NCBI GenBank assembly: GCA_009760855.2
Contig: WPIO01000034.1
Span: 3,295,001-3,359,000, forward strand
Direction of reading: 5' to 3'
From: Cristatella mucedo
Lineage: Eukaryota; Bryozoa; Phylactolaemata; Cristatellidae
Length of the DNA: 64,000 nucleotides
In this document: one piece after another, positions 6,430 to 44,629 of the stretch
How positions within the stretch are numbered: position 1 is the first letter of the stretch
Layout: every line of letters starts with the position of its first letter
The notes under the pieces: model-generated
What the model saw: only the letters and a program-made list of their open reading frames with translations
What the model was told of the DNA's origin: nothing
Databases searched by the model: none
Position numbers and translations under genes: made by a program

Positions 6430-7955
6430 CTTCTTTTTTCATTCGACAGTTGAATTCCTGCCAGTTGGACCCTAGACAGATTTATGAGATGGTAAACCAT
6501 TTACTGGCCAATGCTGAGAGGTCTGACTCCCCAGATATTAAGGGCTCAGCCGAAACGTTTTCAGCCTTCTTTACTAAACAAATTATGCACATTCGTGCCT
6601 CCATAAAGCCCCTTCCGACCACAGCAATCGTGGTTCCACAACCTGTGACCTTCCTTAAAAGGTTCTCCGAGGTTCAACGATGACGGGAATGTCACTGCCC
6701 TAGCTCTGCTAGATCTGTCTGCTGCCTTCGACGCCATTGATCACGATGTTCTGCTTAAACGATTGAGAACAACGATCGGTCTGGCAGAAGAAGCACTGGC
6801 GTGGTTTAAATCGTACTTGTCTGATCGGGTTCAATCCGCGTCGTGTAGGGGTCAGGTCTCACCCACGAGAAGGGTCACCTGTGGAGTCCCTCAAGGATCT
6901 GTACTCGGTCCCTTGCTGTTCTCCATTTATACTCAACCTCTGGAAAAAGTGATTAAGACCCATGGAATAGGATATTACTTGTATGACGACGATACTCAGC
7001 CGTATTTGTCATTCAAACCGTCGGAATCTGCTGCAGCAACTGAGAAACTGAATGCTTGCCTTGCCGACATTCGATCCAGAATGTCGGAAAACTTCTTGAA
7101 ATGAAATGACGATAAAAACCGAACTGCTGCTCACAGGACACCCTAAGCGTGTGGCTGTATTGAAAGGCTTTGCTCTTCTAATAGATGATGGAGTTGTGCG
7201 TCCATCACCACGTGCTCGAAATTTAGGTGTCATTTTCCGACAGCTCAATTTTGTAAGCTTCATTCAGAAGACTGCTTCTGCAGCTAGCAATCACGTCCGA
7301 CCCCTATCTAAGATTAGGAGCTGTCTTCCACAGTGGCCTGTAAAACATTTAACTAGCTCCTTAGTTCTATCTCGGCTTGATTATTGTAATTCCCTTGTTG
7401 ATGGGCTACCAATGAAAGCAACTAGGCCACTGCAGCGGACTATGAATATGGCTGCAAGGCTAGTCTTCAAGTCTCAGCGGTTTGTGCACGTGTCTCCTTT
7501 GCTAAAAGAGCTAGGATGGATGCCGGTTAAGCAACGGATACAGAGCAAAGTTCTTACGCTGACCCACAAGGCAGACCCACAAGCCACGGCTTGGCTCCTT
7601 CATACCTAGCTGAGCTGTTGCACCAGTTTCAGCTTCCTTGTGCCCTCAGGTCTTGTACGGACAATAAATTACTCCCACAATTCTCACGCAACGACAAATA
7701 CTCTCCTACTGCCGACTATGGCTCATCCTTTTCAGCGGTCCTGAGCTGCTACTTCCACGCTACTCACAACCTCAACTGCTCTACTGACTCTGCTATGCTT
7801 CCCACCTTCTCTTAGTTCCGTGAGACGAAGTCTGTTGGCTACCGAATGCGTACCGAAAGCCGCTTAGGCTGTGAGTGCGCTATACGAAACACCCACATAG
7901 TCTTTATGGCTTGGTGGAGTTACAGACGGAGATACAGTACATTACAGCACTCTCC
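6430..7955 (+). mobile_element. LINE-A (CR1/L2-like) retrotransposon, defective ORF2
   Basis: Non-LTR retrotransposon remnant. The pre-RT segment (PRQIYEMVNHLLANAE… at about 6470-6600) jumps near 6683 directly to LLDLSAAFDAIDHD (about 6710). This removes the early RT blocks, roughly 150 residues in relatives. GVPQGSVLGPLL and a degenerate active-site box LYDDDTQ (YADD in intact relatives) follow. The frame then breaks at about 7103, and the ORF2 C-terminal region is read at 7106-7609 and beyond. The 3'UTR (cgaaagccgcttaggctgtgag) runs to a tacattac tail at about 7950. It is inactive. Confidence 0.88.
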
Positions 7956-11410: not shown

Positions 11411-12230
11411 CGAGTAATGTAATGTAATGTATCACCGCCTGTAACTCCACCAAGTCATACAGACTATGTGGGTGTTACGCAGGAGAGTTTTGTATAGCGC
11501 ACTCACAGCCTAAGCGGCTTTCGGTACGCATTCGGTAGCCAACAGACTTTATCTCACGCAACAAAGAGAAAGTGGGAAGCATAGCAGAGTCAGGAGAGCA
11601 GTTGAGGTAGTGAGTAGCATAGAAATAGCAGCTCAGGACCGCTGGAAAGGATGAGCTATAGTCGGCAGTAAGAGAGTATTTGTCGTTGCGTAAGAATTGT
11701 GGATGCGTGTTCCACACTCTAGGACCTGCGGAGCTAAAGCTTCTGTCGCCAACGGTCTTTAAGCGGAGGAATGCAAGAGCTAATTTATTGTCCACACAGG
11801 TCCCGAGGGCGCGAACAGGCTGAAACTGGTGCAACAGTTCAGCTAGGTACGAAGGAGCCAACCCGTGGCGGGCCTTGTGGGTCAGCGTAAGAACTTTGCT
11901 CTGTATCCGTTGCTCAACCGGCAACCATCCTAGCTCTTTTAGCAAAGGAGACACGCGCTCAAATCTCTGGGACTTGAAGACTAGCCTTGCAGCCATATTC
12001 ATATTCCGCTGCAGTGGCCTAGTAGCTTTCTTTGGCAGCCCAGCCAATAGGGAATTGCAATAATTAAGCCGAGACAGAACTAAGGAGCTAGTTAAATTTT
12101 TTACAAACAATTGTAGGAGACTGCTCCTAATCTTGGATAGGGATCGGACGTGATGGTTAGCTGTAGAAGCAGTCTTCTGAATGAAGCGTTTAAAATCCTA
12201 TTGGAAGTCACGCGTCGAATCCAGCGGTAA
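11411..12230 (-). mobile_element. LINE-A 5'-truncated copy inserted into repeat D1
   Basis: The minus strand encodes an uninterrupted C-terminal ORF2 segment (211 codons). It includes SSLVLSRLNYCNSLLAGLPK, ARLVFKSQRF, GWLPVEQRIQSKVLTL and SFSSAGPRVWNTHPQFL. The family 3'UTR and an (acatt)n tail lie at its left end. The better-preserved frame suggests a younger copy than the one at 6430. Confidence 0.9.
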
Positions 12231-17299: not shown

Positions 17300-18095
17300 G
17301 AGGTGCTTAATTCAGAAGTCTGCTTCTACAGCTAGCCATCACATCCGATCCCTATCCAAGATTAGGATCTGTCTCCCGCAGTGGCTTGTAAAAAAAATTA
17401 ACTAGCTCCTTAGTTCTGTCTCGGCTTGATTATTGTTATTCCTTTTGGCCGGGCTGCCAAAGAGAGCTATTAGGCCACTGCAGCGGAATATGAATATGGC
17501 TGCAAGACTAGTCTTCAAGTCCCAGCGGTTTGAGCACGTGTCTCCTTTGCTACAAGAACTAGGATGGATGCCGGTTGAGCAACGGATGCAGAGCAAAGTT
17601 CTTACGCTGACCCACAAGGCCCGCCACGGGTTGGCTCCTTCGTACCTAGCTGAACTGTTGCACCAGTTTCAGCCTGTTCGCGCCCTCAGGTCCTGTGTGG
17701 ACAATAAATTAGCTCTTGCATTCCTCCTCTTAAAGACCGTTGGCGACAGAAGCTTTAGCTCCGCAGGTCCTAGACTGTGGAACACGCATCCACAATTCTT
17801 ACGCAACGACAAATACTCTCTTACTGCCGACTATAGCTCATCCTTTTCAGCGGTCCTGAGCTGCTACTTCTATGCTACGCACTACCTCAACTGCTCTCCT
17901 GACTCTGCTATGCTTCCCACTTTCTCTTTGTTGTGTGAGAGTTGCTTTGAGTTTCGCTTGATGTCTGTTGGCGTGAAATTGGTCTGAATGCGTACCGAAA
18001 GCCGCTTAGGCTGTGAGTGCGCTATTCAAAACTCTCCTGCGTAACACCCACGTGGTCTTTATGATTTTGTGGAGTTACAGACGGAGATACATTAC
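17300..18095 (+). mobile_element. LINE-A 5'-truncated copy
   Basis: ORF2 C-terminal segment in a 184-codon frame (ARLVFKSQRFEHVSPLLQEL, QRMQSKVLTLTHKARHGLAP, SFSSAGPRLWNTHPQFL). It is preceded by IQKSASTASHHIRSLSKIR (17310-17370) in a shifted frame and followed by the family 3'UTR and a tacattacatta tail. Confidence 0.9.
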
Positions 18096-19692: not shown

Positions 19693-21026
19693 CTAAGCAG
19701 AGGAAGCCAACGCCGACTCGCCGGCAACGCCGACGGCAGCGGTGGGGTCGAAAGTGCCGACGCCGGAAACAATGGCAGCAGCCGCCCCTTCCGCAGCGGA
19801 GGCTACGATCCTTCTGGTCATCTTTCGCTCTTTAGCTCGCCGGTTTTGGAACCATATCTTCACCTGCAAACGGAGAAGCTCTTGGAGCGATGCGCGGCTG
19901 CACGGCGTCTTGAAGTCCCGCCTCGCCGAACCGCTTCGCTTCGCTGGGATGGCGGGCAGCAGCAGAAGACCGGCGGCGGTGGCGAGGCACCGACGAGCCC
20001 GGATACTGACCTGCCTCTCCGACAGCCCCAGCTTCGCAGCCAGCTGGACCTTATGGCTCGTAATGACGTAGCGGTGGCCACAGAATTCGTTTTCGAGCTC
20101 TCGGCGCTGCAGGTCGGTATAGACCACCCGGTATTTGTCCTTGGTCCGGGTTTTGCTGCTGCCGTATCTGCTGCTGGAGCTGCTGACGCCTGCAACGAAG
20201 ACAATGCTCGCTGCAGCCGCCGGGTGTCGGCCGGGCCGCTCGACGACACTTCCGGCGGTTTTTTCGCGCCGTCGCCGCCCCCCACCTGCTCAAGCACCGA
20301 TCGCCGTCGCGGCTGGCTGCGTGCTGGAGCGTCTCCCCGAAAAAAGTGCCGATCCGCCGGCAGTTCGACCCACCCACCCCCCCCCTTGACGGCGGCAGCT
20401 AGCTAACGGCCTGAGCTGCCCCGGTGAACAGCAGCACGACCGGCATCTTTGATCGCGCCTAACTGCGGGCGACAGGCTGTGCCGCCGGGAGGGTCGGGAA
20501 GCACGCAGTCTAGGCGGCAAAAAAGGCCACTGGTGAGCGCCGATGGTGGGGATCGGCTTTCTTGGCCTCTCCACCGCTGGGCGACAGGACCCGTGCGCCG
20601 CCGCCACCCCACGTGCATTGCTGCTTTGTTTACGGGCCACTTGCTCGGCGACGCCACAGTCTACCTCAGTTGCAACAAACATCGTCGCAGATCGGCTGCG
20701 GCGTTGCAGCAAACGGTGCAGCTAATCGGGAAGGGACGCGAGGGAGTGAGCGAAGAAACTAGCCGCCGCCAGTGCGCCGCCGCCGGCCGACAATGCAGGC
20801 TCGCTCTCGGCCGGCTCCGAGGCACGAGCCCTCGCGCCGGCCGGCGCTCCGTCTAAAAACCGGTGCGACAGCGATCCGAGTCCGTAGAGCCAAGCATGTC
20901 GCCGCCGCTGCGACCTCGTGCAGCTGCGAGCCGGCGTTCCGACGACGAATTTTCCGTCGGCACCCGAAACTCGTCCCCGTCCCTCTCGGCTCGTGCTCGC
21001 TCGTTTCGAAAAGCGTCGCCGCTCGA

Positions 21027-21070
<44 letters not shown>

Positions 21071-23089
21071 AGCTCATTGAGAGAAGGGGTCGCGTCGCCG
21101 CACGCGCGAAGCAGCGGACAAGTCGGTCGAGCATCGTAAAACCAATAAGGAAGTGACACGCGCCCCGCCGACTGGCCGCCCGCCCGCCCGCCCGCCCGCC
21201 CGCCGATTCGGCTGATTCACCGCGGACTCGCGGAAGCGGCGCCGTCGTTCGCTTCGAGGCAGGCTCGTCGCCGCAGCGGCGAAACAGAATTGGCGAAACA
21301 AAATCGCTCGCCGCCGCGCCGCGATTGGCACCGGTGCGCGACACTGACCTGTCGAGGGCACAAACTGAGTCGGTGGCTGCGCCATCGAAGCGCTGACGTT
21401 GGGCCATCCGAATGCATGGTTTGCCATCCCGTAGCCGTGGAACGAAAAATCCGAGAAAACGCTCGACGTCGAGTCGGTCGCTAGCGGGTGATGGCTGACG
21501 GCTGACGGCAGCTGCTGCTGATGCGGGAAGGCATTTATGGTGTGGCCGTGAAACGAAGGATAGCTGGCGCCGCCGCTGCCGACTGGGACGTAGCCGCTAT
21601 TCGGAGACGCCTGGTAGGGCTGCGGTACCTGGTGGGAGGGGTACTCAGCCATCCAGTTGGGCTGGGCCGTCGACCGTCCGATGCTTCCCAGGCCGCCGCC
21701 GCCGGTCTCCAGGTGTTGTGGCATTTGCATGTGCATGTACGAGCCAGTACTGCCTCCATCGGTCTGCCACCGAGGGCAGGACGAAGCGCCGGCAGCGGCC
21801 GCCGGAGGCCCGTATCCCGTCGCCGTCATTGGCATGCTGACTCCGAGCGAGGTCGTCAGCGCACCACTGTCGTAGCCGCACGTGTAAGCGCCCGGAGTGA
21901 TAAACTGCTGCTGCAACGGCGACACCGTCACCTGATGCCTTTCGTCGAACGTGTGGCCGCCTGTTGCCGAACCGCCGAAGTCGAGAAAAGGCCCGCCGTT
22001 GCCGCCGCCGTTGTTGCCGCCGCCGTTGATGCCGCCGTTGCCGCCGCCGTTGATGCCGCCGATTTTGGCGCCGTTGATGCCGCCGCCGTTGATGCCGCCG
22101 CCGTTGATGCCGCCGCCGTTGATGCCGCCGCCGTTGATGCCGCCGCCGTTGATGCCGCCGCCGTTGATGCCGCCGCCGTTGATGCCGCCGCCGTTGATGC
22201 CGCCGCCGTTGATGCCGCCGCCGTTGATGCCGCCGCCGTTGATGCCGCCGCCGTTGATGCCGCCGCCGTTGATGCCGCCGCCGTTGATGCCGCCGCCGTT
22301 GATGCCGCCGCCGTTGATGCCGCCGCCGTTGATGCCGCCGCCGTTGATGCCGCCGCCGTTGATGCCGCCGTCGTTGTTGCCGCCGATTTTGGCGCCGTTG
22401 CCGCCGTCGTTGTTGCCGCCGATTTTGGCGCCGTTGCCGCCGTCGTTGTTGCCGCCGATTTTGGCGCCGTTGCCGCCGCCGTTGTTGCCGCCGATTTTGG
22501 CGCCGTTGCCGCCGCCGTTGTTGCCGCCGTTGAAGCCGCCGTTGACGCCGCCGTTGAAGCCGCCGTTGAAGCCGCCGTTGACGCCGCCGTGGAAGCCGCC
22601 GTTGACGCCGCCGTGGAAGCCGCCGTTGACGCCGCCGTTGACGCCGCCGTGGAAGCCGCCGTTGACGCCGCCGTTGACGCCGCCGTTGAAGCCGCCGTTG
22701 AAGCCGCCGTGGAAGCCGCCGTTGAAGCCGCCGTTGAAGCCGCCGTTGAAGCCGCCGTTGAAGCCGCCGTTGAAGCCGCCGTTGAAGCCGCCGTTGAAGC
22801 CGCCGTTGAAGCCGCCGTTGAAGCCGCCGTTGACGCCGTTGTCGTCGTTGTTGCCGCCGTTGACGCCGCCGTTGACGCCGCCGTTGACGCCGCCGTTGAC
22901 GCCGCCGTTGCTGCCGTCGTTGTTGCCGCCGTTGAAGCCGCCGTTGTTGCCGCCGTTGACGCCGCCGCCGTTGACGTAGTGTGCCACCGCATCAATGCCG
23001 TTCGTGGCCTCCGCCGCGGTGCCGTTCATGAAGTCAAACCCGTCGCCGCTTGAGCTCTTGCTTGAGCTAAACTCTTGCTTGAACACCAT
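19693..23089 (-). CDS. Cdx: Caudal-type (ParaHox) homeobox transcription factor with a giant Gly/Asn repeat domain
   Basis: Nuclear DNA-binding developmental regulator; Cdx proteins pattern posterior axis and gut in bilaterians. I read complement join(19693..19863,20011..20189,21349..23089), 696 aa. The start at 23089 has the context ACCATGG. Exon 1 (580 codons) contains the Gly/Asn repeat (residues about 39-366) and a Gln/Ser/Tyr/Pro-rich segment (367-580), and ends cag|gtcagt in phase 1. Exon 2 follows a ttcgttgcag acceptor in matching phase and gives [14 protein letters not shown]. The homeodomain is residues 597-656, with L16, F20, W48, F49, Q50 and N51 all present, and [14 protein letters not shown] opens exon 3. 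The intron falls between homeodomain positions 44 and 45, as in known Cdx genes. Helices 1-2 are diverged ([16 protein letters not shown]). A 40-aa Ala-rich tail follows. A clear YPWM hexapeptide is absent; PNWM in exon 1 is a weak candidate. Confidence 0.95.
19864..20010 (-). other. Cdx: Cdx intron 2 (within the homeodomain)
   Basis: 147 bp, from the donor caggtcagt to the acceptor gtttgcag, phase 0, splitting homeodomain residues Q44 and V45. Confidence 0.9.
20190..21348 (-). other. Cdx: Cdx intron 1
   Basis: About 1.16 kb, phase 1, very GC-rich. It contains a (GCC) run of about 13 units at 21029-21070 and a (CCCG) run at about 21177-21204. Several long ORFs cross it on both strands because of composition. 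A short extra exon cannot be excluded, but the flanking phases join directly. Confidence 0.85.
21990..22975 (-). repeat. Cdx: Coding minisatellites in Cdx exon 1
   Basis: Three in-frame unit types are seen. A 15-bp unit (peptide INGGG) is repeated about 19 times at about 22076-22365. A 36-bp unit (AKIGGNN[G/D]GGNG) is repeated about 4 times at about 22378-22512. A 12-bp unit ([F/V/H]NGG, FHGG) is repeated about 30 or more times at about 22523-22975. All lengths are multiples of three, so copy-number change keeps the frame. Confidence 0.97.
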
Positions 23090-23222: not shown

Positions 23223-23400
23223 GGCCGAGCGTCGGGAGTTACTGGCGACAGAGTGAACGAGTACGCAGGAGCGCGACTTTTTAAAGCCTCCCGCCTGACG
23301 GAAGCTAGCCTCTGGGCCAGCCTCCAGCGAGCCCGGCCCAGTGGGCGGGGTTTCGGCGGACACCCACACATGTGATCTGTAACTCGACTCTGATTGGTGG
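23223..23400 (-). promoter_or_regulatory. Cdx: Candidate Cdx core promoter
   Basis: On the minus strand in order: a CCAAT box (about 23398-23394), a GC box (GGGCGGGG on the plus strand, 23343-23350), a TATA-like TTTAAAAA starting at 23285, and an initiator-like TCACTCT with its A at 23254. The TATA-like box is about 31 bp upstream of that A, the normal spacing. The predicted 5'UTR is about 165 nt. This is pattern-based only. Confidence 0.5.
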
Positions 23401-24869: not shown

Positions 24870-24879
24870 GAGGAGGCAG

Positions 24880-25150
24880 GCCCGGGGCTCGGAAGAGAAC
24901 GGGCAGCCGGTGCTCTCGCGGCGCGGGGGTGGGTCGGCCCGGGCTCGGAAGAGAACGGGCAGCCGGTGCTCTCACGGCGCGAGGGTGGGTCGGCCCGGGC
25001 TCGGAAGAGAACGGGCAGCCGGTGCTCTCGCGGCGCGGGGGTGGGTCGGCCCGGGCTCGGAAGAGAACGGGCAGACGGTGCTCTCGCGGCGCAGGGGTGG
25101 GTCGGCCCGGGCTCGGAAGAGAACGGCCCGGAAGCCGGCGCTCTCTCGTG
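24880..25150. repeat. 56-bp GC-rich minisatellite, about 4.7 copies
   Basis: gggcagccggtgctctcgcgg starts at 24901 and recurs at 24957, 25013 and 25069 (exactly 56 bp apart), with a degenerate copy at about 25125. Because 56 is not a multiple of 3, the long ORFs across it are not coding evidence. Confidence 0.96.
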
Positions 25151-27904: not shown

Positions 27905-28630
27905 GTACTGTAATGTAATGTATCTACGTCTGTAACTCAACAAAGTCATTAAGACCATGTGGGTGTTACGCAGGAGAGTTTTGTATAGCGCACTCACAGC
28001 CTAAGCGGCTTTCGGTATGCATTCGGTAGCCAACAGACTTCGTCTCATGCAACAAAGAGAAAGTGGGAAGCATAGCAGAGTCAGGAGAGCAGTTGAGGTA
28101 GTGAGTAGCATGGAAGTACCTGCTCAGGACCGCTGCAAAGGATGTGCCATAGTCGGCAGTAGGAGAGTAGTTGTCGTTGCGTAAGAATTGTGGAAGCGAG
28201 TTCCACAGTCTAGGACCTGCAGAGCTAAAGCTTCTGTCGCCAACTGTCTTCAAGCGGAGGAATGGGACAGCTAATTTATTGTGCGGGTGCGAACAGGCTA
28301 AAACTGATGCAGCAGTTCAGCTAGGTACGAACGAGCCAAGCCGTGGCAGGCCTTGTGGGTAAGAACTTGCTCTGTATCCTTTGCTCAACCAGCAACCATC
28401 CTAGCTCTTTCAGCAAAGGAGACACGTGCTCAAACCGCCGGGACTTGAAGACTAGTCTTGCAGCCATATTCATAGTCTGCTGCAGTGGCATAATAGCTTT
28501 CTTTGGCAGCCCAGCCAAAAGGGAATTACAATGATCAAGCCGAGACAGAACTAAGGAGCTAGTTAGATTTTTTACAAGCCACTGCGGGAGACAGCTCCGA
28601 ATCTTGGATAGGGATCGGATGTGATGGGTA
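27905..28630 (-). mobile_element. LINE-A copy nested in array unit R0
   Basis: The minus strand carries SFSSAGPRLWNSLPQFL, ARLVFKSRRFEHVSPLLKEL and SSLVLSRLDHCNSLLAGLPK in two frames, and the 3' tail tacattacattac at the left end. It interrupts array sequence that is continuous in other units (…gattttgaagat / aacgatgag…). Confidence 0.9.
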
Positions 28631-28851
28631 CATAACAATGATACGGAAAGATAACGGGAAGATAACGATGAGTACAAGGCCTTCTCAGCATCGGTCGCCG
28701 CCGCACGATGCCCTCCCAAAGTTCAATCGGTGCGCACCGATATGCACCGACGGGCTGATACCCTAGAATAAATTCCTTCGCTGCTACCCCAGGAAAGCAA
28801 GCGACCAAAGAACCGAATCATGCCCAAAGATGGTAGCCAGTCGGAATGGCT

Positions 28852-30825: not shown

Positions 30826-33800
30826 CTGCTGAATAAAATGCCGTTGGCGATACGCACACTTCGGTCGATTTCGAATATTTTAGCTACTTTATGCCAGTAG
30901 GAATAGAAGAGTCATCGTGAAGCAAGGAATAAGCCGGCCGGTGCCCCCACGGGTTCTTGGTAGTGTTTCAGCTGAAGGGTCCATACTCATTACATAATCA
31001 CCCAACTCAGACGTGTCAGACATTTTCTTGTTCCTTTCCTGCTGCCTCAATTGGAAGGGCAGCGGGTCACCCCAGGAGTCGCACCAGCAAAAGGACAGCA
31101 GTCTCGCCTGACCACAACCCCTTAACGAAGCCCTGCCTGAGACCCGAGCCGATCGGCCGGGGGCTATTGGATAGCGCGACACAAGCTCTGTACCCCTGAG
31201 CCTCACGTTCCGGCAAGACGGCAAAGTACTGTAAGCTGCAGGCAGGATAACACCCACTGATAAGACAAGTCAGACATTTTCTATTTCCTTCCCGTCTGCC
31301 TCTATTTAAAGGGCAGGTGGTCACAGCAGGAGTCGCGCCAGCAAAAGGACAGCAGTCTCGCCTGACCACAACCCCTTCACGAAGTGCTGCCTGAGACCCG
31401 AGCCGACCGGCCTATGGCTAATGGTAAGGGCAACACAAACTAGGTACCAGTGAGCCTCACCGTCCAGCAAGACAGGAAGCACCGTAAGCTGCAGGCACGA
31501 AAACTCCCACAGATAGCGTCTCTGCTCATTGACTAAGCTTAGCTTCTGAACTAAACTCAAAGTCTGAATGTCGCAAGCATGAGCAATCTGGGTAGCATTG
31601 AATTAACGTCGCGAAACTGTACTCTGGCGTAGGACGAGGCGAACGAGAGAACGTCTGGTGTCTTGGGAGAGGAAACGCACAGTTCTCATTCGCTGAGCAC
31701 AGAATGCTCAGTGATCATGAAGCAGCTTCAGAACCTCCCGTTGGTCCCACAAAAGGCCTGCAAGCCTGAGCGAAGTTGCTAGCTAGCAGTGACGTCTGAA
31801 CTCGGGCTGCAGTGAACAGCATTCTGGCACCTTCGACAAGGGTTTGTATGCCGTCTACATAGCGATTCCACCATTTTCGCAGTCCACGATATCTTGGGCA
31901 AACGTGCGTGCATGATCCTCGACAAAGTGTCCAGCCTGCATTTCCTATCCGAATGCGGCTGTTGCTAGCTTCACAGAATTTCACGTTTGTGTAGCCAGCA
32001 ATGAGTAGAAGGCATTATTCGCAACACCCGCACTATGCACTATCAAAGTACGATCAGTCATAGCACGGATACGCTTCGATGCCCTCATGGATTCCTTTGC
32101 TGCTACTCGAGGAGAACAAACAACCAAGGGACCGACTCGCGCCCGAAGACAGTAATCTGTCATAATGGCTGCAAATCAACTGTCAAGCTGCTTCGGCGGT
32201 GCGAAGGAAGTCCAAGTAACCGGCTCGGTCTTGCAGGGCTAATAAAAGGAGCTTGAAAGAATCGTCGCCTTTGATATACAGCCGCCCGGCTTTATTGCCG
32301 TCGTGCACCCCAGTCGTGCTTCACAGGCTTGGCTGAAGCAGCTTCAGTAAGATGCCAGGTAATAATTTAGTGTCACCACGACAAAGTTTTCGGTGGCATA
32401 CGGTAGCAAAAAAGCTGCCAACATAAACTCACCGAGTTCAGATAGTCGTAGAAGCTATCGCCTCTTGCTACATCTACTATAAGTATAAACTGTGCACGTT
32501 AAAATGCCCACACGACCGTGCCAACCTAGGGACCGCAGATACAAAAACTTTACTTTAGCAATTCGTGACAGGAAAGCATGACAATAATGTGCCTTGCTGC
32601 CCGAATGCAGTAGAACTGCAACGTGATGCAGGCGGTGGGGCGATAGAATAGCCAGCAATTTCCAGTAGTGAGAGAGCATCCGATTAAGAGTGAAAGCACT
32701 ATCGTTTGAAAGCAGGCCTAAGAAAGGTGGGCCGTTCCCAGAATGTAAGGTAAGGAGGCCAGTTCTCGAGGAACAAGGTCGAGGTGTCGAATGCTGGAAT
32801 GGGGTGATTATTTATTTCCAACTGTAAGTCGTAGTGATAGCTCCTAAGGCTCTACTGCAGCAAAACCAACGAGGAAGATACGTCAGCTAATACTTTTGAA
32901 GTATAGAACAAGCACAGATCGCAAAGAGCAAGGTGGCCATTTATCTGTCTGAGAGCCTGCCAGGTTCATCTGAGCCCGGTCAGACCTAAAGATTCAGGGC
33001 AACGATGAAATGTACATGATTGCCGTGACCACGACGTCCTGCCAGAGGTTGCTGATCTGAAAGCCGATGTCACGTAGTACCAAGTAGTATGAGGTAATTC
33101 CAAGGTTGGTCGATGTCACGTAGTAGAGAAAATTTTAAGAACCACTGAAGTGTAACAGTAATTACACAGTGTGAGTACGTAAGAATACTATGTGAAATGA
33201 ACCGAAGAAGCATATACAACTGTACGCATATTTGGATTAATTTTGACAACGACTAAGGTATTATTGAGATCCCATATGGTATTACGAACGATGCACAATT
33301 ACACAGTCAAAATAAGATATTACCTAGATCATAGCCATATCTACTCTCTTTCTAACCCTTTGCTTGCTCAAGTGAATCCTGAAAGTAGCAACTGGCGTGA
33401 GAAGGCATAACTGAGTGAGGGGAAAAGTCCAGAAAGCTAGGAGGTAGCCATGCACTTCTGTGGGACAAGATGTCCCGGATTTCGAGGCGGAATAACAATC
33501 TTCGTTGCTTAGGAATGACGAAAGTGAGATTCACAGTCGAGGATCGGCAGAACGAACCTGCTCGCGGATATTAATACCAGCAGTTTAATCGCTGGCTCGG
33601 TACTTATGAAGTGACCAATGCAGGCCTTCCGGGACCAGATTAGCCTGATCTTATTCTAAGGGACAGCCAGCATAGGAGAGCCCCACTATTTACCGGATAC
33701 AGCTGCTTGAGATGATTCTTAGATGCTTTGTCAGCGAATTGGGAAGCTCATGTAACTAGCACTAGTGAGAGATGGGAAGATCTAGTGCTGCTCCATGGCA

Positions 33801-34322
33801 GGCACCTGCAAGTGCTCGATGAGGTACACCCCCAGCAATGCAGTCAGTAAGCTCCTAACTCGACGAGGGGGGAGGGGCAGTAGGGATGCAGCGAACTAGG
33901 CAAGGCTGCATCGAGCTGCTCTTTAGCAGCTACAAGTAACTAGTGCAGCAAGCCTATGAGGGCACCGTGTGCCTTCGTGGCGTGTTCTTCCGCTCGAGCG
34001 AGCCTCCCGGTATTTAGCAATCTTGTGTTCCTAGGAAATACAATTTTAGTGCGTGTCAACTCATTCAGTATGGCATAACGATGGACCTGCGATTTCTATA
34101 GCAAGTGTCACCTCCACTGATATGACGAACCGCAGCCGTCGGCCGTCAGGCGCGACAGGCAGCTAGTTTATAAGCTGTAAAACATTAGGAGACAATAACC
34201 CCTTTGTGGTCTAAGCAGCTCTGCTAAACAGGCTCAAATCCTCGGCAAGGTAGCTGCTGTCTTGTTCTGCCAGCGCCTCTCTAGTGGCCAGTTTTTCATC
34301 CTTTATTGTTACAGCCAAAGTG
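30826..34322 (+). repeat. Array unit R1
   Basis: 3,497 bp. Internal 256-bp duplication at about 31016-31525. SINE2 relic at about 32740-32880. Inverted LINE-derived fragment at about 33350-33560. The copy is intermediate in divergence. Confidence 0.93.
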
Positions 34323-37300
34323 CTGCTGAATAAAAAGCCGTTGGCGATACGCGTACTTCAGTCGAACTCAAATATTTTAGCTACTTAATGCCAGTAGGAA
34401 TAGAAAAGTCATTGTGAAGCAAGGAATAAGCCGGCCGGTGCCCCCACGGGTTCTTGGTAGTGTTTCAGCTGAAGGGTCCATACTCATTACATAATCACCC
34501 AACTCAGAAGAGTCAGACATTTTCTTGTTCCTTTCCTGCTGCCTCAATTGGAAGGGCAGCGGGTCACCCCAGGAGTCGCACCAGCAAAAGGACAGCAGTC
34601 TCGCCTGACCACAACCCCTTAACGAAGCCCTGCCTGAGACCCGAGCCGATCGGCCGGGGGCTATTGGATACCGCCACACAAGCTCTGTACCCAAAAGCCT
34701 CACGTCCCAGCAATACGGCACAGTACTGTAAGCTGCAGGCAGGATAACACACACTGATAAGACGAGTCAGACATTTTCTATTTCCTTAACTGCTGCCTCT
34801 ATTTGAAGGGCAGGTGGTCACTGCAGGAGTCGGACCAGCAAAAGAACCACAGTCACGCCAGGCGTTACCCAGTCAACAAAGCCCTGGCTGACACCCGAGC
34901 GGATCGGCTAACGCTTATTGGCTAGCACGATGCGAGCTCGGGACAGCCGTGCCTCACCTTCCAGCAAGACAGGAAGCACCGCAGGCCGCAGGTAGGACAA
35001 CACCCACTGAGAGAGTCTCTGCTCATTGACTAAGCTTAGCTTCTGAACTAAGCAAGGAGGCTGAATGTCGCAAGCACGAGGAATCGTGGGTAGCATTGAA
35101 TTAACGTCGTGACACTGTACTCTGTCTTAGGACGAGCCGAACGATAGAACGTCTGGTGTCTAGGGAGAGGAAAAGCACAGTTCTCATTCGCTGAGCACAG
35201 AATGCTCAGTGCACATACAGCGGCCTCAGAACCTCCCGTTCGTCCCACAAAAGGCCGGCAAGCCTGGGCCAGGTTGCTAGCCAGCAGTGACGTCTGCCCT
35301 CGGGAGGCAGTAAACAGCGTTCTGGTGCCTTCGACTAGGATTTTCATGCCGTCTACATTGCAAGTCCAGCATTTTCGCAGGCTGCGAAATCTCGATCGAA
35401 CTTGTGTGCTTGTTCTTCGACATAGTGTCCAGCCTGCATTTACCATCCGAATGTGGCTGTTGATAGCTTCACATGATGCTACGATTGTGTAGCCAACGAT
35501 GAGTAGAGGGCCGTCATTGCAGCACCTACAAAATGCCTACCCAAAGTACGACCAGTCCGCACCGTTCCGCTTCGATGCCCTCATGGATTCCTTCACTGCT
35601 ACTCGAGGAGAACAAACAACCAAGGGACCGACTCACGCCCGAAGACAGTAATCTGTCATAATGGCTGCAAATCAACTGTCAAGCTGCTTGGGCAGTGCAA
35701 AGGAAGTCCAAGCAACCGGCTCAGTCTTGCAGGGCTAATAAAAGCAGCTTGAAAGAATCTTCGCCTTTGATAAACAGCCGCCCGGCTTTATTGCCCGTCG
35801 TGCACCCCAGTCGTGCTTCACAGGCTTGGCTGAAGCAGCCTCAGTAAGATGCTAGCTTATAGTTTAGTGTCACCTCGACAAAGTTTTCGGTGGCATACGG
35901 TAGCAAAAAAGCTGCCAACATAATCTCACCAAGTTTAGGTAGTCGTAGTAGCTATCGCCTCTTGCTAGATCTATTAAAAGTATAACCTGTACACACTTTA
36001 AAAATGCCCACACGACCGTGCCAACCTATGGACAGCAGAGATACACAAACTTTACTTTAGAAATTCGTGACAGGAGGGATGTCAATCATGTGCCTTGCAG
36101 CCCGAATGCAGTAGAACTGCAACGTGATGCAGGCGGTGGGGCGATAGAATAGCCAGCAATTTCCAGTAGTGAGAGAGCATCTGGTTTAAAGTGAAAGCAC
36201 TATCGTTTGAAAGCAGGCCTAAGAAAGGTGGGCCGTTCCCAGAATGTAAGGTAAGGAGGCCAGTTCTCGACGACCGAGGTCGAGGTGTCGAATGCTGCAT
36301 TGGGGTGATTATTTATTTCCAACTGAAAGTCGTAGTGATAGCTCTTAAGGCTCTACTGCTGCAACACCAATGAGGACGATACATCAGCTAATGGTTTTGA
36401 AGTATAGAATAAGCACAGATCGCCAAGAGCAAGGTGGCCATTTACCTGTCCGAGAGCCTGCCAGGTTCATCTGAGCCCGGTCAGACCTAAGGATTCGGGG
36501 CAAAGATGATATTACGTGATTGCCGTGACCACGACGTCCTGCCAGAGGTTGCTAATCTGAAAGCCGATGTCACCTAGTACCACGTAGTACGAGGTAATTC
36601 CAAGGTCGGTCGATGTCAAGAAGTAGAGAAAATTTCAAGAACCACTGAAGTGTAACAATAATTACACAGAGTGAGTACGTAAGAATACTATGTGAAATGA
36701 ACCGAAGAAGCATATACAACTGTAGGCATATTTGGATTAATTTTAACGACGACTAAGGTATTATTGAGATCCCATATGGTATTACGAACGATGCACAATT
36801 ACACAGTCAAAATAAGATATTATCCATATCTACTCTCTTTCTAACCCTTTGCATGCTCAAGTGAATCCTGAAAGTAGCAACTAGCATGAGAAGGCATAGC
36901 TGAGTGAGGGGAAAAGTCCAGAAAGCTAGGAGGTAGCCATGCACTTCCGTGGGACAAGATATCCCGGATTTTGAGGCGGAAGGAAAATCTTCGTTGCTTA
37001 GGAATGACGAAAGTGAGATTCACAGTCGAGGATCTGCAGAACAAACCTGCTCGCGGATATTAATACCAGCAGTGTAATCGCTGGCTCGGTACTTATGAAG
37101 TGACCAATGCAGGGACCAGATTAGCCATATCTTTTACTAAGGGACAGCGAGCATAGGAGAGCCCCACTATTTACCGGATACAGCTGCTTGAGATGATTCT
37201 TGAATGCTTTGTCAGCGTATTGGTAAGGAAATGTAACTAGCACTAGTGAGAGATGGGCAGATCTAGTGCTGCTTCATTGCAGTCACCGGCCAGCTCTCGA

Positions 37301-37759
37301 TGAGGTATACCCTCAGCAATGCAGTAAATAAACTCCTCACTCGACGAGGGGGGCAGTAGGGATGCAACAAACTAGGCGAGGCTGTATCGAGCTGCTCTTT
37401 AGCAGCTGTGAGTAGCTAGTGCGGCGAGCCTAGCACTGCTGGCACCGTGTACCTTCATGGCGCGTTCTACTGCTCGAGCAAGCCTCCCACAATCTAGCAA
37501 TCTTGAGTACCTAGAAAATACACTTTAAGTGTTTGTCAACTCAGTCAGGATGGCATAACGACTGACCCGCGATTTCTATAGCAGGTGTCACATTGGCAGC
37601 TAGTTTATAAGCAGTACAACATTAGGAGACAATAACCCCTTTGTGGTCTAAGCAGCTCTGCTAAACAGGCTCAAATCCTCGGCAAGGTAGCTGCTGTCTT
37701 GTTCTGCCAGCGCCTCTCCAGTGGCCAGTTCTTCATCCTTTATTGTTACAGCCAAAGTG
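34323..37759 (+). repeat. Array unit R2
   Basis: 3,437 bp. It differs from R1 and R3 by scattered substitutions and small indels (aataaaaag instead of aataaaatg at its first landmark). SINE2 relic at about 36240-36370. Confidence 0.94.
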
Positions 37760-40700
37760 CTGCTGAATAAAATGCCGTTGGCGAAACACATACTTCGGTC
37801 GAACTCGAATATTTTAGCTACTTTATGCCAGTAGGAATAGAAGAGTCATCGTGAAGCAAGGAATAAGCCGGCCGGTGCCCCCACGGGTTCTTGGTAGTGT
37901 TTCAGCTGAAGGGTCCATACTCATTACATAATCACCCAACTCAGACGTGTCAAGACATTTTCTTGTTCCTTTCCTGCTGCCATAATTGGAAGGACAGCTG
38001 GTCACCTTAGGAGTCGTGCCAGGAAACGGACAGCAGCCTCGCCTGACCACAACCCCTTAACAAATCCCTGCCTGAGACCCGAGCCGATCGGCCGGGGGCT
38101 ATTGGCTAGCGCGACCCAAGCTTAGTACACCTGAGCCTCACGTTCCGGCAAGACGGCACAGTACTGTAAGCTGCAGGCAGGATAACACCCACTGATAAGA
38201 CAAGTCAGACATTTTCTCGTTCCTTCCCTGCTGCCTCCATTTAAAGGGCAGGTGGTCACAGCAGGAGTCGCTCCAGCAAAAGGACAGCAGTCTCGCCTGA
38301 CCACAACCCCTTCACGAAGTGCTGCCTGAGACCCGAGCCGACCGGCCTGCGGCTGTTGGCTAGGGCGACACAAGCTAGGTACCGGTAAGCCTCACCGTCC
38401 AGCAAGACGGGAAGCACCGTAAGCTGCAGGCACGACAACTCCCACAGATGGCGTCTCTGCTCATTGACTAAGCTTAGCTTCTGAACTAAACTCAAAGTCT
38501 GAATGTCGAAAGCATGAGCAATCGCGAACGTCTGGTGTCTTGGATGAAGAAAAGCACAGTTCTCATTCGCTGAGTACAGAATGCTCAGATAACATAGATC
38601 GGCCTCAGAATCTCCTATTGGTTCCACAAAAGCCCTGCAAGCCTGAGCCAGGTTAACCTCTGCACTCGGGGGGGGGGGGCAATGAACAGCGCTCTGGCAC
38701 GTTCGACTAGGATTTTCATGCCGTCTACATAGCGATTCCAGCATTTTCCCAGTCCACGATATCTACTGCTAATTTGCGTTTGTGTTCTTCGACATAGTGT
38801 CCAGCCTGTATTTATTATCCGAACGTGGCTGTTGGTAGCTTCACAGAATTTCACGACTGTGTAGCCATCGATGAGTAGAAGGCTTTCTTTGCAGCACCCC
38901 CACTATGCCCACGCAAAGTACGACCAGTCATAGCACGGATACGCTTCGATGCCCTCATAGATTCCTTCGCTGCTACTCGAGGAGAACAAACAACCAAGGG
39001 ACCGACTCGCGCCCGAAGACAGTAATCTGTCATAATGGCTGCAAATCAACTGTCAAGCTGCTTGGGCAGTGCAAAGGAAGTCCAAGCAACCGGCTCAGTC
39101 TTGCAGGGCTAATAAAAGCAGCTTGAAAGAATCGTCGCCTTTGATAAACAGCCGCCCGGCTTTATTGCCCGTCGTGCACCCCAGTCGTGCTTCACAGGCT
39201 TGGCTGAAGCAGCCTCAGTAAGATGCTAGCTTATAGTTTAGTGTCACCTCGACAAAGTTTTCGGTGGCATACGGTAGCAAAAAAGCTGCCAACATAATCT
39301 CACCAAGTTTAGGTAGTCGTAGTAGCTATCGCCTCTTGCTAGATCTATTAAAAGTATAACCTGCACACACTTTAAAAATGCCCACACGACCGTGCCAACC
39401 TATGGACAGCAGAGATACACAAACTTTACTTTAGAAATTCGTGACAGGAAGGATGTCAATCATGTGCCTTGCAGCCCGAATGCAGTAGAACTGCAACGTG
39501 ATGCAGGCGGTGGGGCGATAGAATAGCCAGCAATTTCCAGTAGTGAGAGAGCATCTGGTTTAAAGTGAAAGCACTATCGTTTGAAAGCAGGCCTAAGAAA
39601 GGTGGGCCGTTTCCAGAATGTAAGGTAAGGAGGCCAGTTCTCGAGGACCAAGGTCGAGGTGTCGAATGCTGCATTGGGGTGATTATTTATTTCCAACTGA
39701 AAGTCGTAGTGATAGCTCTTAAGGCTCTACTGCTGCAACACCAATGAGGACGATACATCAGCTAAAAGTTTTGAAGTATAGAACAAGCACAGATCGCGAA
39801 GAGCAAGGTGGCCATTTACCTGTTTGAGAGCCTGCCAGGCTCAGCTGGGCCCGGTCAGATCTAGAGATTCGGGGCAACGATGGAACTACGTGATTGCCGT
39901 GAGCACGACGTCCTGCCAGAGGTTGCTAATCTGAAAGCCGATGTCACCTAGTACCAAGTAGTACGAGGTAATTCCAAGGTCGGTCGATGTCAAGAAGTAG
40001 AGAAAATTTCAAGAACCACTGAAGTGCAACAATAATTACACAGAGTGAGTACGTAAGAATGCTATGTGGAATGAACCGAAGAAGCATATACAACTGTAGG
40101 CATATTTGGATTAATTTTGACAACGACTAAGGTATTATTGAGATCCCATATGGTATTAGGAGCTATGCACCATTACACGGTCAAAATAAGATATTATCTA
40201 GATCCAAGTCATATCTACTCTCTTTCTAACCCTTTGCATGCTCAAGTGAATCCTGAAAGTAGCAACTGGCGTGAGAAGGCATAACTGAGTGAGGGGAAAA
40301 GTCCAGAAAGCTAGGAGGTAGCCATGCACTTCCGTGGGACAAGATGTCCCGGATTTCGAGGCGGAATAACAATCTTCGTTGCTTAGGAATGACGAAAGTG
40401 AGATTCACAGTCGAGGATCTACAGAACAAACCTGCTCGCGGATATTAATACCAGCAGTTTAATCGCTGGCTCGGTACTTATGAAGTGACCAATGCAGGCC
40501 TTCCGGGACCAGATTAGCCTGATCTTTTTCTAAGGGACAGCGAGTACAGGAGAGCCGACTATTTACCGGATACAGCTGCTTGAGATGATTCTTAGATGCT
40601 TTGTCAGCGTATTGGGAAGCACATGTACCTAGCAGTAGTGATCTATTGGCAGATCTAGTGCTGCTCCATGGCAGAAAGCGGCAATCGTTCGATGAGGTAC

Positions 40701-41189
40701 ACCCCCAGCAATGCATTAAGAAAACTCCTCACTCGACGAGGGGGCCGTATGGATGGTGCAAACTAGGCGAGGCTGTATCGAGCTGCTCTTTAGCAGCTGC
40801 GAGTAACTAGTGCTGCGAGCGCATGCGGGCACCGTGTGCCTTCGCGGCGTGTTCTTCCGCTCGAGCGAGCCTCCCGGTATCTAGCAATCTTGTGTTCCTA
40901 GAAAATACACTTTTAGTGTGTGTCAACTCAGTCAGTATGGCATAACGACGGACCTGCGATTTCTATAGCAAGTGTCACCTCTACTGATATGACGAACCGC
41001 AGCCGTCGGCCGTCAGGCGCGACAGGCAGCTAGTTTATAAGCTGTTAAACATTAGGAGACAATAACTCCTTTGTGGTCTAAGCAGCTCTGCTAAACAGGC
41101 TCAAATCCTCGGCAAGGTAGCTGCTGTCTTGTTCTGCCAGCGCCTCTCCAGTGGCCAGTTCTTCATCCTTAATTGTTACAGCCAAAATG
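37760..41189 (+). repeat. Array unit R3 (higher-order type a)
   Basis: 3,430 bp. Nearly identical to R5 over its whole length. It shares the short deletion before the poly-G run (about 38654-38683) that R4 lacks. SINE2 relic at about 39610-39740. Confidence 0.96.
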
Positions 41190-44100
41190 CTGCTGAATAA
41201 AATGCCGTTGGCGATACGCACACTTCGGTCGAACTCGAATATTTTAGCTACTTTATGCCAGTAGGAATAGAAGAGTCATCGTGAAGCAAGGAATAAGCCG
41301 GCCGGTGCCCCCACGGGTTCTTGGTAGTGTTTCAGCTGAAGGGTCCATACTCATTACATAATCACCCAACTCAGACGTGTCAGACATTTTCTTGTTCCTT
41401 TCCTGCTGCCATAATTGGAAGGACAGCTGGTCACCTTAGGAGTCGTGCCAGGAAACGGACAGCAGTCTCGCCTGACCACAACCCCTTAACAAATCCCTGC
41501 CTGAGACCCGAGCCGATCGGCCTACGACTATTGGCTAGCGCGAACCAAGCTTAGTACACCTGAGCCTCACGTTCCGGCAAGACGGCACAGTACTGTAAGC
41601 TGCAGGCAGGATAACACCCACTGATAAGACAAGTCAGACATTTTCTCGTTCCTTCCCTGCTGCCTCCATTTAAAGGGCAGGTGGTCACAGCAGGAGTCGC
41701 TCCAGCAAAAGGACAGCAGTCTCGCCTGACCACAACCCCTTCACGAAGTGCTGCCTGAGACCCGAGCCGACCGGCCTGCGGCTGTTGGCTAGGGCGACAC
41801 AAGCTAGGTACCGGTAAGCCTCACCGTCCAGCAAGACGGGAAGCACCGTAAGCTGCAGGCACGACAACTCCCACAGATGGCGTCTCTGCTCATTGACTAA
41901 GCTTAGCTTCTGAACTAAATTCAAAGTCCGAATGTCGCAAGCATGAGCAATCGCGAACGTCTGGTGTCTTGGATGAAGAAAAGCACAGTTCTCATTCGCT
42001 GAGTACAGAATGCTCAGATAACATAGATCGGCATCAGAATCTCCTATTGGTTCCACAAAAGCCCTGCAAGCCTGAGCAAGGTTGCTAGCTAACAATAACC
42101 TCTGCACTCGGTGGGGGGGGGCAGTGAACAGCGTTCTGGCACGTTCGACTAGGATTTTCATGCCGTCTGCATAGCGATTCCAGCAATTTCCCAGTCCACG
42201 ATATCTACTGCTAACTTGCGTTCGTGTTCTTCGACATAGTGTCCAGCCTGTATTTATTATCCGAACGTGGCTGTTGGTAGCTTCACAGAATTTCACGATT
42301 GTGTAGCCATCGATGAGTAGAAGGCTTTCTTTGCAGCACCCCCACTATGCCCACCCAAAGTACGACCAGTCATAGCACGGATACGCTTCGATGCCCTCAT
42401 GGATTCCTTCGCTGCTACTCGAGGAGAACAAACAACCAAGGGACCGACTCACGCCCGAAGACAGTAATCTGTCATAATGGCTGCAAATCAACTGTCAAGC
42501 TGCTTCGGCGGAGCGAAGGAAGTCCAAGTAACCGGCTCGGTCTTGCAGGGCTAATAAAAGGAGCTTGAAAGAATCGTCGCCTTTGATATACAGCCGCCCG
42601 GCTTTATTGCCGTCGTGCACCCCAGTCGTGCTTCACAGGCTTGGCTGAAGCAGCCTCAGTAAGATGCCAGGTAATAATTTAGTGTCACCACGACACAGTT
42701 TTCGGTGGCATACGGTAGCAAAAAAGCTGCGTACATAAACTCACCAAGTTCAGATAGTCGTAGAAGCTATCGCCTCTTGCTACATCTACTATAAGTATAA
42801 ACTGTGCACGTTAAAATGTCCACACGACCGTGCCAACCTATGGACAGCAGAGATACACAAACTTTACTTTAGAAATTCGTGACAGGAAGGATGTCAATCA
42901 TGTGCCTTGCAGCCCGAATGCAGTAGAACTGCAACGTGATGCAGGCGGTGGGGCGATAGAATAGCCAGCAATTTCCAGTAGTGAGAGAGCATCTGGTTTA
43001 AAGTGAAAGCACTATCGTTTGATAGCAGGCCTAAGAAAGGTGGGCCGTTTCCAGAATGTAAGGTAAGGAGGCCAGTTCTCGACGACCAAGGTCGAAGTGT
43101 CGAATGCTGGATTGGGGTGATTATTTATTTCCAACTGAAAGTCGTAGTGATAGCTCTTAAGGCTCTACTGCTGCAACACCAATGAGGACGATACATCAGC
43201 TAATGGTTTTGAAGTATAGAATAAGCACAGATCGCCAAGAGCAAGGTGGCCATTTACCTGTCTGAGAGCCTGCCAGGTTTATCTGAGCCCGGTCAGACCT
43301 AAAGGTTCGGGGCAACGATGAAATGTACATGATTGCCGTGACCACGACGTCCTGCAAGAGGTTGCTGATTGAAAGCCGATGTCACCTAGTACCAAGTAGT
43401 ACGAGGTAATTCCAAGGTCGGTCGATGTCAAGAAGTAGAGAAAATTTCAAGAACTACTGAAGTGTAACAATAATTACACAGAGTGAGTACGTAAGAATAC
43501 TATGTAAATTAATCCGAAGAAGCACATACAGCTGTAGGCGTATTTGGATTAATTTTGACGACGACTAAGGTAATATTGAGATCCCATATGGTATTAGGAG
43601 CTATGCACCATTACACGGTCAAAATAAGATATTATCTAGATCCAAGTCATATCTACTCTCTTTCTAACCCTTTGCATGCTCAAGTGAATCCTGAAAGTAG
43701 CAACTGGCGTGAGAAGGCATAACTGAGTGAGGGGAAAAGTCCAGAAAGCTAGGAGGTAGCCATGCACTTCCGTGGGACAAGATGTCCCGGATTTCGAGGC
43801 GGAATAACAATCTTCGTTGCTTAGGAATGACGAAAGTGAGATTCACAGTCGAGGATCTACAGAACAAACCTGCTCGCGGATATTAATACCAGCAGTGTAA
43901 TCGCTGGCTCGGTACATATGAAGTGACCAATGCAGGCCTTCCGGGACCAGATTAGCCTGATCTTTTTCTAAGGGACAGCGAGTACAGGAGAGCCGACTAT
44001 TTACCGGATACAGCTGCTTGAGATGATTCTTAGATGCTTTGTCAGCGTATTGGGAAGCACATGTACCTAGCAGTAGTGATCTATTGGCAGATCTAGTGCT

Positions 44101-44629
44101 GCTCCATGGCAGAAAGCGGCAATCGTTCGATGAGGTACACCCCCAGCAATGCATTAAGAAAACTCCTCACTCGACGAGGGGGGGCCGTATGGATGGTGCA
44201 AACTAGGCGAGGCTGTATCGAGCTGCTCTTTAGCAGCTGCGAGTAACTAGTGCTGCGAGCGCATGCGGGCACCGTGTGCCTTCGCGGCGTGTTCTTCCGC
44301 TCGAGCGAGCCTCCCGGTATCTAGCAATCTTGTGTTCCTAGAAAATACACTTTTAGTGTGTGTCAACTCAGTCAGTATGGCATAACGACGGACCTGCGAT
44401 TTCTATAGCAAGTGTCACCTCTACTGATATGACGAACCGCAGCCGTCGGCCGTCAGGCGCGACAGGCAGCTAGTTTATAAGCTGTTAAACATTAGGAGAC
44501 AATAACTCCTTTGTGGTCTAAGCAGCTCTGCTAAACAGGCTCAAATCCTCGGCAAGGTAGCTGCTGTCTTGTTCTGCCAGCGCCTCTCCAGTGGCCAGTT
44601 CTTCATCCTTAATTGTTACAGCCAAAATG
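41190..44629 (+). repeat. Array unit R4 (higher-order type b)
   Basis: 3,440 bp. Its start is nearly identical to the start of the truncated R6 at 48054. The minus strand has the longest array ORF (41685-42296, 203 codons). That ORF is split or shifted in every other unit, so I do not regard it as a gene. Confidence 0.96.

Follow-up and report, generated by a model that had tools for sequence, protein, structure and literature searches.

The leech Helobdella robusta contains 28 homeoboxes that group in a clade with CDX, a number called unprecedented (PMC4758240), and Cdx duplicates are found in the oligochaetes Nais (two), Pristina (two) and Eisenia (four), with paralogues whose expression is split between growth zone and hindgut (PMC10379933). 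Length polymorphism of amino-acid repeats has been reported in regulatory genes, for example of polyglutamine in the stalk-eyed fly (PMC3055267). The genome of the bryozoan Cristatella mucedo shares with that of the leech the presence of many extra Cdx-like homeoboxes, but ten of its copies form a tandem array and one copy carries a large repeat, a feature of which the accessible sections of the leech report make no mention (PMC4758240). The oligochaete duplicates illustrate how extra copies diverge, and a repeat is likewise unmentioned in the accessible sections of that study (PMC10379933). The stalk-eyed fly provides the parallel of an in-frame, length-variable repeat in regulatory proteins, going by the accessible part of that report (PMC3055267), whereas the C. 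mucedo gene has a compound unit of 12 and 15 bp that occupies more than half of its first exon. Among the matches listed in a search of titles and abstract openings of the open-licence literature, no published Cdx with a Gly/Asn repeat was found. Thus, Cdx expansion as such has been published for the leech, and a repeat-bearing divergent Cdx appears unusual within such an expansion.

Within the window, the whole 64,000-nucleotide stretch of C. mucedo DNA analysed here, a caudal-type gene is encoded on the minus strand in three exons (23089-21349, 20189-20011 and 19863-19693) with GT/AG splice sites. The joined model comprises 696 codons (696 residues) and bears out the gene limits of 19693-23089 given in the initial annotation. 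Exon 1 extends over 1741 nt from the ATG to the donor ACAG/GTCAGT in an open frame of 684 codons, and consists of an N-terminal block (22976-23089), a Gly/Asn tandem repeat (21992-22975) and a remainder 3' of the repeat (21349-21991; PFLDFGG..NWMAEY..GWP..PSTG). Exon 2 (20011-20189; AG acceptor, GTCAGT donor) encodes the homeodomain up to ..LSERQ, and exon 3 (19693-19863) the rest of the homeodomain and the C-terminus to the stop codon. Intron 1 contains a perfect CGC run of 13.7 copies (21030-21070).

In a search of solved structures, the homeodomain scores best against CDX-1 and CDX-2 (87 bits), followed by an engrailed construct as the highest-ranking protein other than CDX (74 bits) and then by Hox-A13 (52 bits). 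In a tree that includes six other homeodomains of the genome, it joins CDX1/CDX2 with a support of 99/98, and the caudal-type identity proposed initially is thereby confirmed. In Cdx/caudal genes the homeodomain is typically interrupted by an intron between positions 44 and 45; the intron after LSERQ is common to the window gene and to three further copies in the genome (C222, C74b and C455). The window gene resembles Cdx/caudal ParaHox factors in its homeodomain arm, in its recognition helix and in the place of this intron, which is as in the C222 copy, but differs from them in its divergent helices 1 and 2 and in the 328-residue repeat of exon 1. Its homeodomain is identical to that of C222 at 43 of 60 residues, and it has lost basic residues around the beginning of helix 2 (YITIRRK in C222, YVITSHK in the window gene), which may weaken DNA binding. 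Cdx/caudal proteins possess a hexapeptide-like Trp motif immediately before the homeodomain, and in the alignment the window gene and its paralogues share an NWM, DWM or DWL motif about 100 residues N-terminal of it, a tentative counterpart at best. Pfam includes a family for the caudal activation region, which was not found among the matches of the window protein at E values up to 1; the only families matched are Homeodomain and, below threshold, Homeobox_KN. The C222 copy yields the identical two matches, and the Pfam model thus gives no distinction between the two genes.

Cdx-like second exons are present at no fewer than 17 sites in the genome, namely the window, C222, C74 (ten copies plus C74b, a Cdx-like copy at 194.5 kb), C566 (three) and C455 (one), a lower bound that covers the best-scoring candidates only and leaves out fragments at C566:805 and C74:164 kb. 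At least 15 of these are further divergent Cdx-like homeodomain exons on C74, C566 and C455 (C74:112596-164600, C74:194487-196154, C566:805-17064 and C455:20064-21802; loci L014-L020 and L022-L025). Ten of them are arranged in tandem between 112.6 and 160 kb of C74, with steps of 4.5-4.9 kb save one of 9 kb. C74b and C455 yield joined three-exon models of 392 and 342 residues with exon phases as in the window gene. Among the first eight array copies checked, the homeodomain frames are shifted in those at 136 and 141 kb, and the copy at C566:5827 carries stops. In six copies of exon 1 the match extends over the full 265 residues of the query and is uninterrupted by stops. The array, a lineage-specific mixture of intact and broken copies, is perhaps even less common than the repeat. 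In the tree, its copies are united with C74b and C455 in one clade (95/92), to which the window gene is joined at 75/48. This grouping of the window gene with the divergent clade is weak, and the linker comparison below is consequently one between paralogues whose branching order is not fixed.

The gene on C222 (C222:12028313) is the more conventional Cdx of this genome and lies nearest to CDX1/CDX2 in the tree. The designation of the window gene as a Cdx gene therefore holds as far as its caudal type is concerned, but it is a divergent extra paralogue, and the copy most like CDX1/CDX2 is the one on C222. An open frame upstream of the C222 homeodomain (locus L021) is its presumed exon 1, assigned from sequence, and contains Gly and Gln runs; an array of the Gly/Asn kind was not found there by eye. 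Known Cdx N-terminal activation regions had initially been described as short and unremarkable, which is too strong given the runs in this presumed exon and those of Asn in Drosophila Caudal.

Other homeodomains of the genome include two Lox5-like ones at L029 (C665:11746971) and L030 (C221:3113969), in which the homeodomain is followed by a KLTGPN peptide that we take to be the Lox5 peptide of lophotrochozoans, and two more Hox-like homeodomains, L027 on C665 and L028 on C221. One Lox5-like and one Hox-like homeodomain on each of C665 and C221 perhaps reflect a duplicated Hox region. COX1 can be read without interruption under genetic code 5 and equally under code 9. A full-length COX1 match is located on C688, and COX1 pieces at C166:4375626-4376390 and C83:2826-3735 are possible nuclear copies of mitochondrial DNA. 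A tRNA scan returned 0 genes.

The repeat spans 328 codons (residues 39-366) or 984 nt of exon 1 at 22975-21992 on the minus strand, in agreement with the size and position initially assigned to it and with the statement that more than half of exon 1 is repeats. It consists of Gly (170), Asn (77), Ile (27), Phe (19), Val (14), Asp (6), Ala (5), Lys (5), His (4) and Ser (1). Tandem Repeats Finder reports a period of 12 at 21993-22967 (75.5 copies, score 776) and a period of 15 at 22000-22385 (26.5 copies, score 653), and with shifts of 12, 15 or 36 nt the highest lag identity reaches 0.78, compared with a mean of 0.62 and a maximum of 0.65 in 500 codon shuffles of the array. Three main blocks with irregular sequence at both ends can be distinguished: 27 units of 12 bp (22511-22834; 14 TTCAACGGCGGC, eight GTCAACGGCGGC, four TTCCACGGCGGC and one AACAACGGCGGC), an AKIGGNN stretch, and 19 identical 15-bp units ATCAACGGCGGCGGC encoding INGGG (22079-22363). 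Between neighbouring 12-bp units (n = 27) there are 20 differences at codon position 1, one at position 2 and none at position 3. Codons of the repeat end in C in 322 of 328 cases (A in five, G in one), as opposed to 151 of 369 in the gene outside the repeat, stop codon included. The array looks young or homogenised, because the variation among its 12-bp units is amino-acid-changing, with synonymous variation absent, and the 19 15-mers are identical. Since the differences between units alter the encoded protein when read in the NGG frame, there is no sign of selection on the exact sequence of the repeat.

A Pfam family covering the repeat was not found, and its lone match in the Protein Data Bank, a pyridoxal kinase chain (E 2.3e-4, 23.9 bits over 96 residues), was taken as a chance hit of low complexity and not as a known fold. 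The array was also considered as a dispersed genomic element, which is unsupported: a 30-mer of the INGGG block has 26 matches in the assembly with up to three mismatches, 21 of them inside the array and the others on C453 (two), C687 (two) and C44 (one). When a portion of the repeat served as protein query, at least 127 matches were obtained (best 150 of 671 candidates scored), of which the best outside the locus has an E value of 1.2e-11 at 51% identity and none there exceeds 53%, and these outside matches were taken as compositional. Long Gly/Asn-rich stretches above the script thresholds were not found in the three forward frames at five outside loci.

Additional repetitive sequence in the window comprises a 56-bp tandem repeat upstream of the Cdx gene (24879-25126; 4.4 copies, 96% matches) and five pairs of 254-bp direct repeats at 31015-45314 (at 31015, 34506, 37953, 41379 and 44819, about 3.4 kb apart), which are perhaps an array of larger units. 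Open frames resembling pieces of LINE-type reverse transcriptases were recognised by eye at 6649-7606, 11478-12197 (minus strand), 17430-17984 and 28324-28722 (minus strand).

In the NGG frame, C74b exon 1 is similar to that of the window gene on either side of the repeat, with E 3.9e-5 on the N-terminal side (SGGGFDFKNATA--AINGSDAAVHY) and E 1.9e-10 on the C-terminal side, these E values coming from a small database with the low-complexity filter off. The N-terminal block is matched in C74b, and the remainder 3' of the repeat in C74b, C455 and copies of the C74 array. At the insertion point, three divergent paralogues have Gly-rich linkers of 9-11 residues between VHY and FLD or SFPE/SFPD (GGRVAGGGSGS in C74b, GGSRGGGGQ in C455 and GGSGGCGGQ in the C74 array), and exon 1 is homologous on both sides of the linker with its frame unchanged. 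The insertion point VHY/FLD and the exact edges were set by eye, since MAFFT alone places the gap boundaries loosely. Because three paralogues possess a Gly-rich linker at this point and the flanks are homologous in frame, the repeat most likely grew in frame within an existing linker. The simplest history would be the roughly thirty-fold expansion of a short Gly linker in one copy.

Slippage or unequal exchange might have started from a linker of GGC-type codons. The G-rich sense strand would then form serial hairpins and the other strand could not, leading to the addition of units of 12 and 15 bp, which are multiples of three. In DNA folding, the sense strand of the INGGG block (22079-22363) forms a row of hairpins with -80 kcal/mol (z -4.1), compared with a z of +11.0 for the antisense strand; most of the 12-bp block (22540-22834) gives z values of -3.5 (sense) and +9.4 (antisense), and a flanking exon control (21500-21784) 0.4 and 0.2. 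These z values are relative to shuffles and a single control stretch, and the energies ignore G-G pairs and quadruplexes. One folding and one non-folding strand is a known setting for triplet-repeat slippage, and the asymmetry supports, but does not prove, a hairpin-aided minisatellite expansion, which we regard as moderately supported. The insertion could have been tolerated because the ancestral role can still be filled by the more conventional Cdx elsewhere, and because the linker that received it is distant from the homeodomain. Under such a mechanism, repeat length should vary between individuals.

Several features favour a working gene that is translated through the repeat. The start context is ACCATGG, an in-frame stop is located 14 codons upstream of the ATG, and no further ATG was found in the 250 nt upstream of the start. 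A TATA-like element, TTTAAAAA (23278-23285, minus strand; a pattern match only), precedes the ATG by 196 nt with no ATG between, and C74b also has a TATAAA upstream. The array contains one AG and 14 GT, with a donor context of GGCGTCAAC except for the first GT, at its edge, which reads TACGTCAAC. Splicing-out of the array is unlikely, as it would offer no good donor and only this one AG. The initial annotation would have been contradicted by transcripts that start downstream of the repeat or splice it out; at the sequence level, the upstream signals and the poor splice sites of the array oppose both and favour translation through the repeat, although in-frame Met codons follow it, the first at residue 419, and a downstream start is therefore still conceivable. 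Outside the repeat, dN is 0.51 and dS 1.16 relative to C74b (335 codons), and 0.61 and 1.41 relative to C455 (305 codons); the resulting dN/dS of about 0.44 is soft, given the high dS, the loose alignment of exon 1 and averaging over both branches. The intact frame, splice sites, start context, TATA-like element and dN below dS versus C74b thus speak for a working gene, while the loose alignment, the high dS and the basic residues lost near homeodomain helix 2 count against it.

Taken together, the locus probably represents an extra Cdx duplicate, one member of a lineage-specific family, in which hairpin-aided minisatellite growth expanded a linker by slippage in a relaxed and probably still working gene. 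Its predicted product is a caudal-type DNA-binding protein whose N-terminal half would be split by a 328-residue flexible Gly/Asn spacer. In an AlphaFold2 prediction of exon 1 from the single sequence without an alignment, the mean pLDDT is 38.6 with 0 residues at or above 70, and low-confidence helices (pLDDT 50-55) are placed inside the repeat; these low values are weak evidence that fits disorder.

What the spacer does, if anything, can be read in two ways. It may be a neutral coding minisatellite with no role at the protein level, while the gene works or decays regardless, a reading to which we give somewhat less than an even chance. The amino-acid-changing unit variants with no difference at codon position 3, the near-perfect homogeneity of the units and the frameshifts or stops in several copies of the family array agree with it. 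Against it stand an array of 984 nt in which neither a stop nor a unit that breaks the frame occurs, and flanking coding sequence that is matched in frame in C74b and C455. Alternatively, the repeat could be a selected low-complexity domain that forms condensates or alters activation. Twelve consecutive Phe are spaced at four residues, with later ones at multiples of four, Ile recurs every five residues across 19 units, and only 11 of 328 residues are charged, so that a spacer with such steps may weakly self-associate. The low-complexity domains of TDP-43 and hnRNPA1 resemble such Gly/Asn sequence with regular aromatics. As the repeat is absent from the paralogues compared, and 19 aromatics in 328 residues may leave it merely soluble and flexible, we consider selection unlikely. 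Effects on activation, phase separation, nuclear retention or condensation may follow from the repeat.

An assembly error, with a true repeat much shorter or longer or a mis-joined array, is improbable. Perfect 15-bp units are a sequence type often wrong in length, and the locus has one full match in a single assembly, which provides no second-haplotype check; nevertheless, the contig sizes (at least 12 Mb) suggest long reads, the array stays in frame and is organised internally in blocks, and the frame of exon 1 runs on into both flanks. Translation of the array in the +1 frame is very improbable, for although the 12-bp block would read there as Ser-Thr-Ala-Ala (STAA) across the Phe/Val and Asn/His variants, with position 1 of the NGG frame becoming position 3 and the changes, Phe/Val/Ile included, mostly synonymous, the similarity of either flank to the paralogues lies in the NGG frame, so that the frame would have to shift twice in compensating fashion, and a few mutations spread by duplication yield the same pattern.

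ParaHox genes are usually regarded as stable, and in this one genome a conventional Cdx coexists with a divergent one, whose huge repeat is apparently young, and with further Cdx relatives in tandem array. At its boldest, which we think improbable, a ParaHox gene freed by repeated duplication would have turned a short Gly linker into a fast-growing, condensate-forming Gly/Asn domain with spaced Phe and Ile, whose length acts as a heritable dial on the strength of the factor, and the whole divergent Cdx family would amount to a rapidly evolving branch of the ParaHox genes that has gained new functions. The effect of the repeat is testable by exchanging an 11-residue linker for a 328-residue one. 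Furthermore, the linker of the array copies suggests the state before the expansion, and how a developmental transcription factor came by a large low-complexity domain may thereby become traceable.
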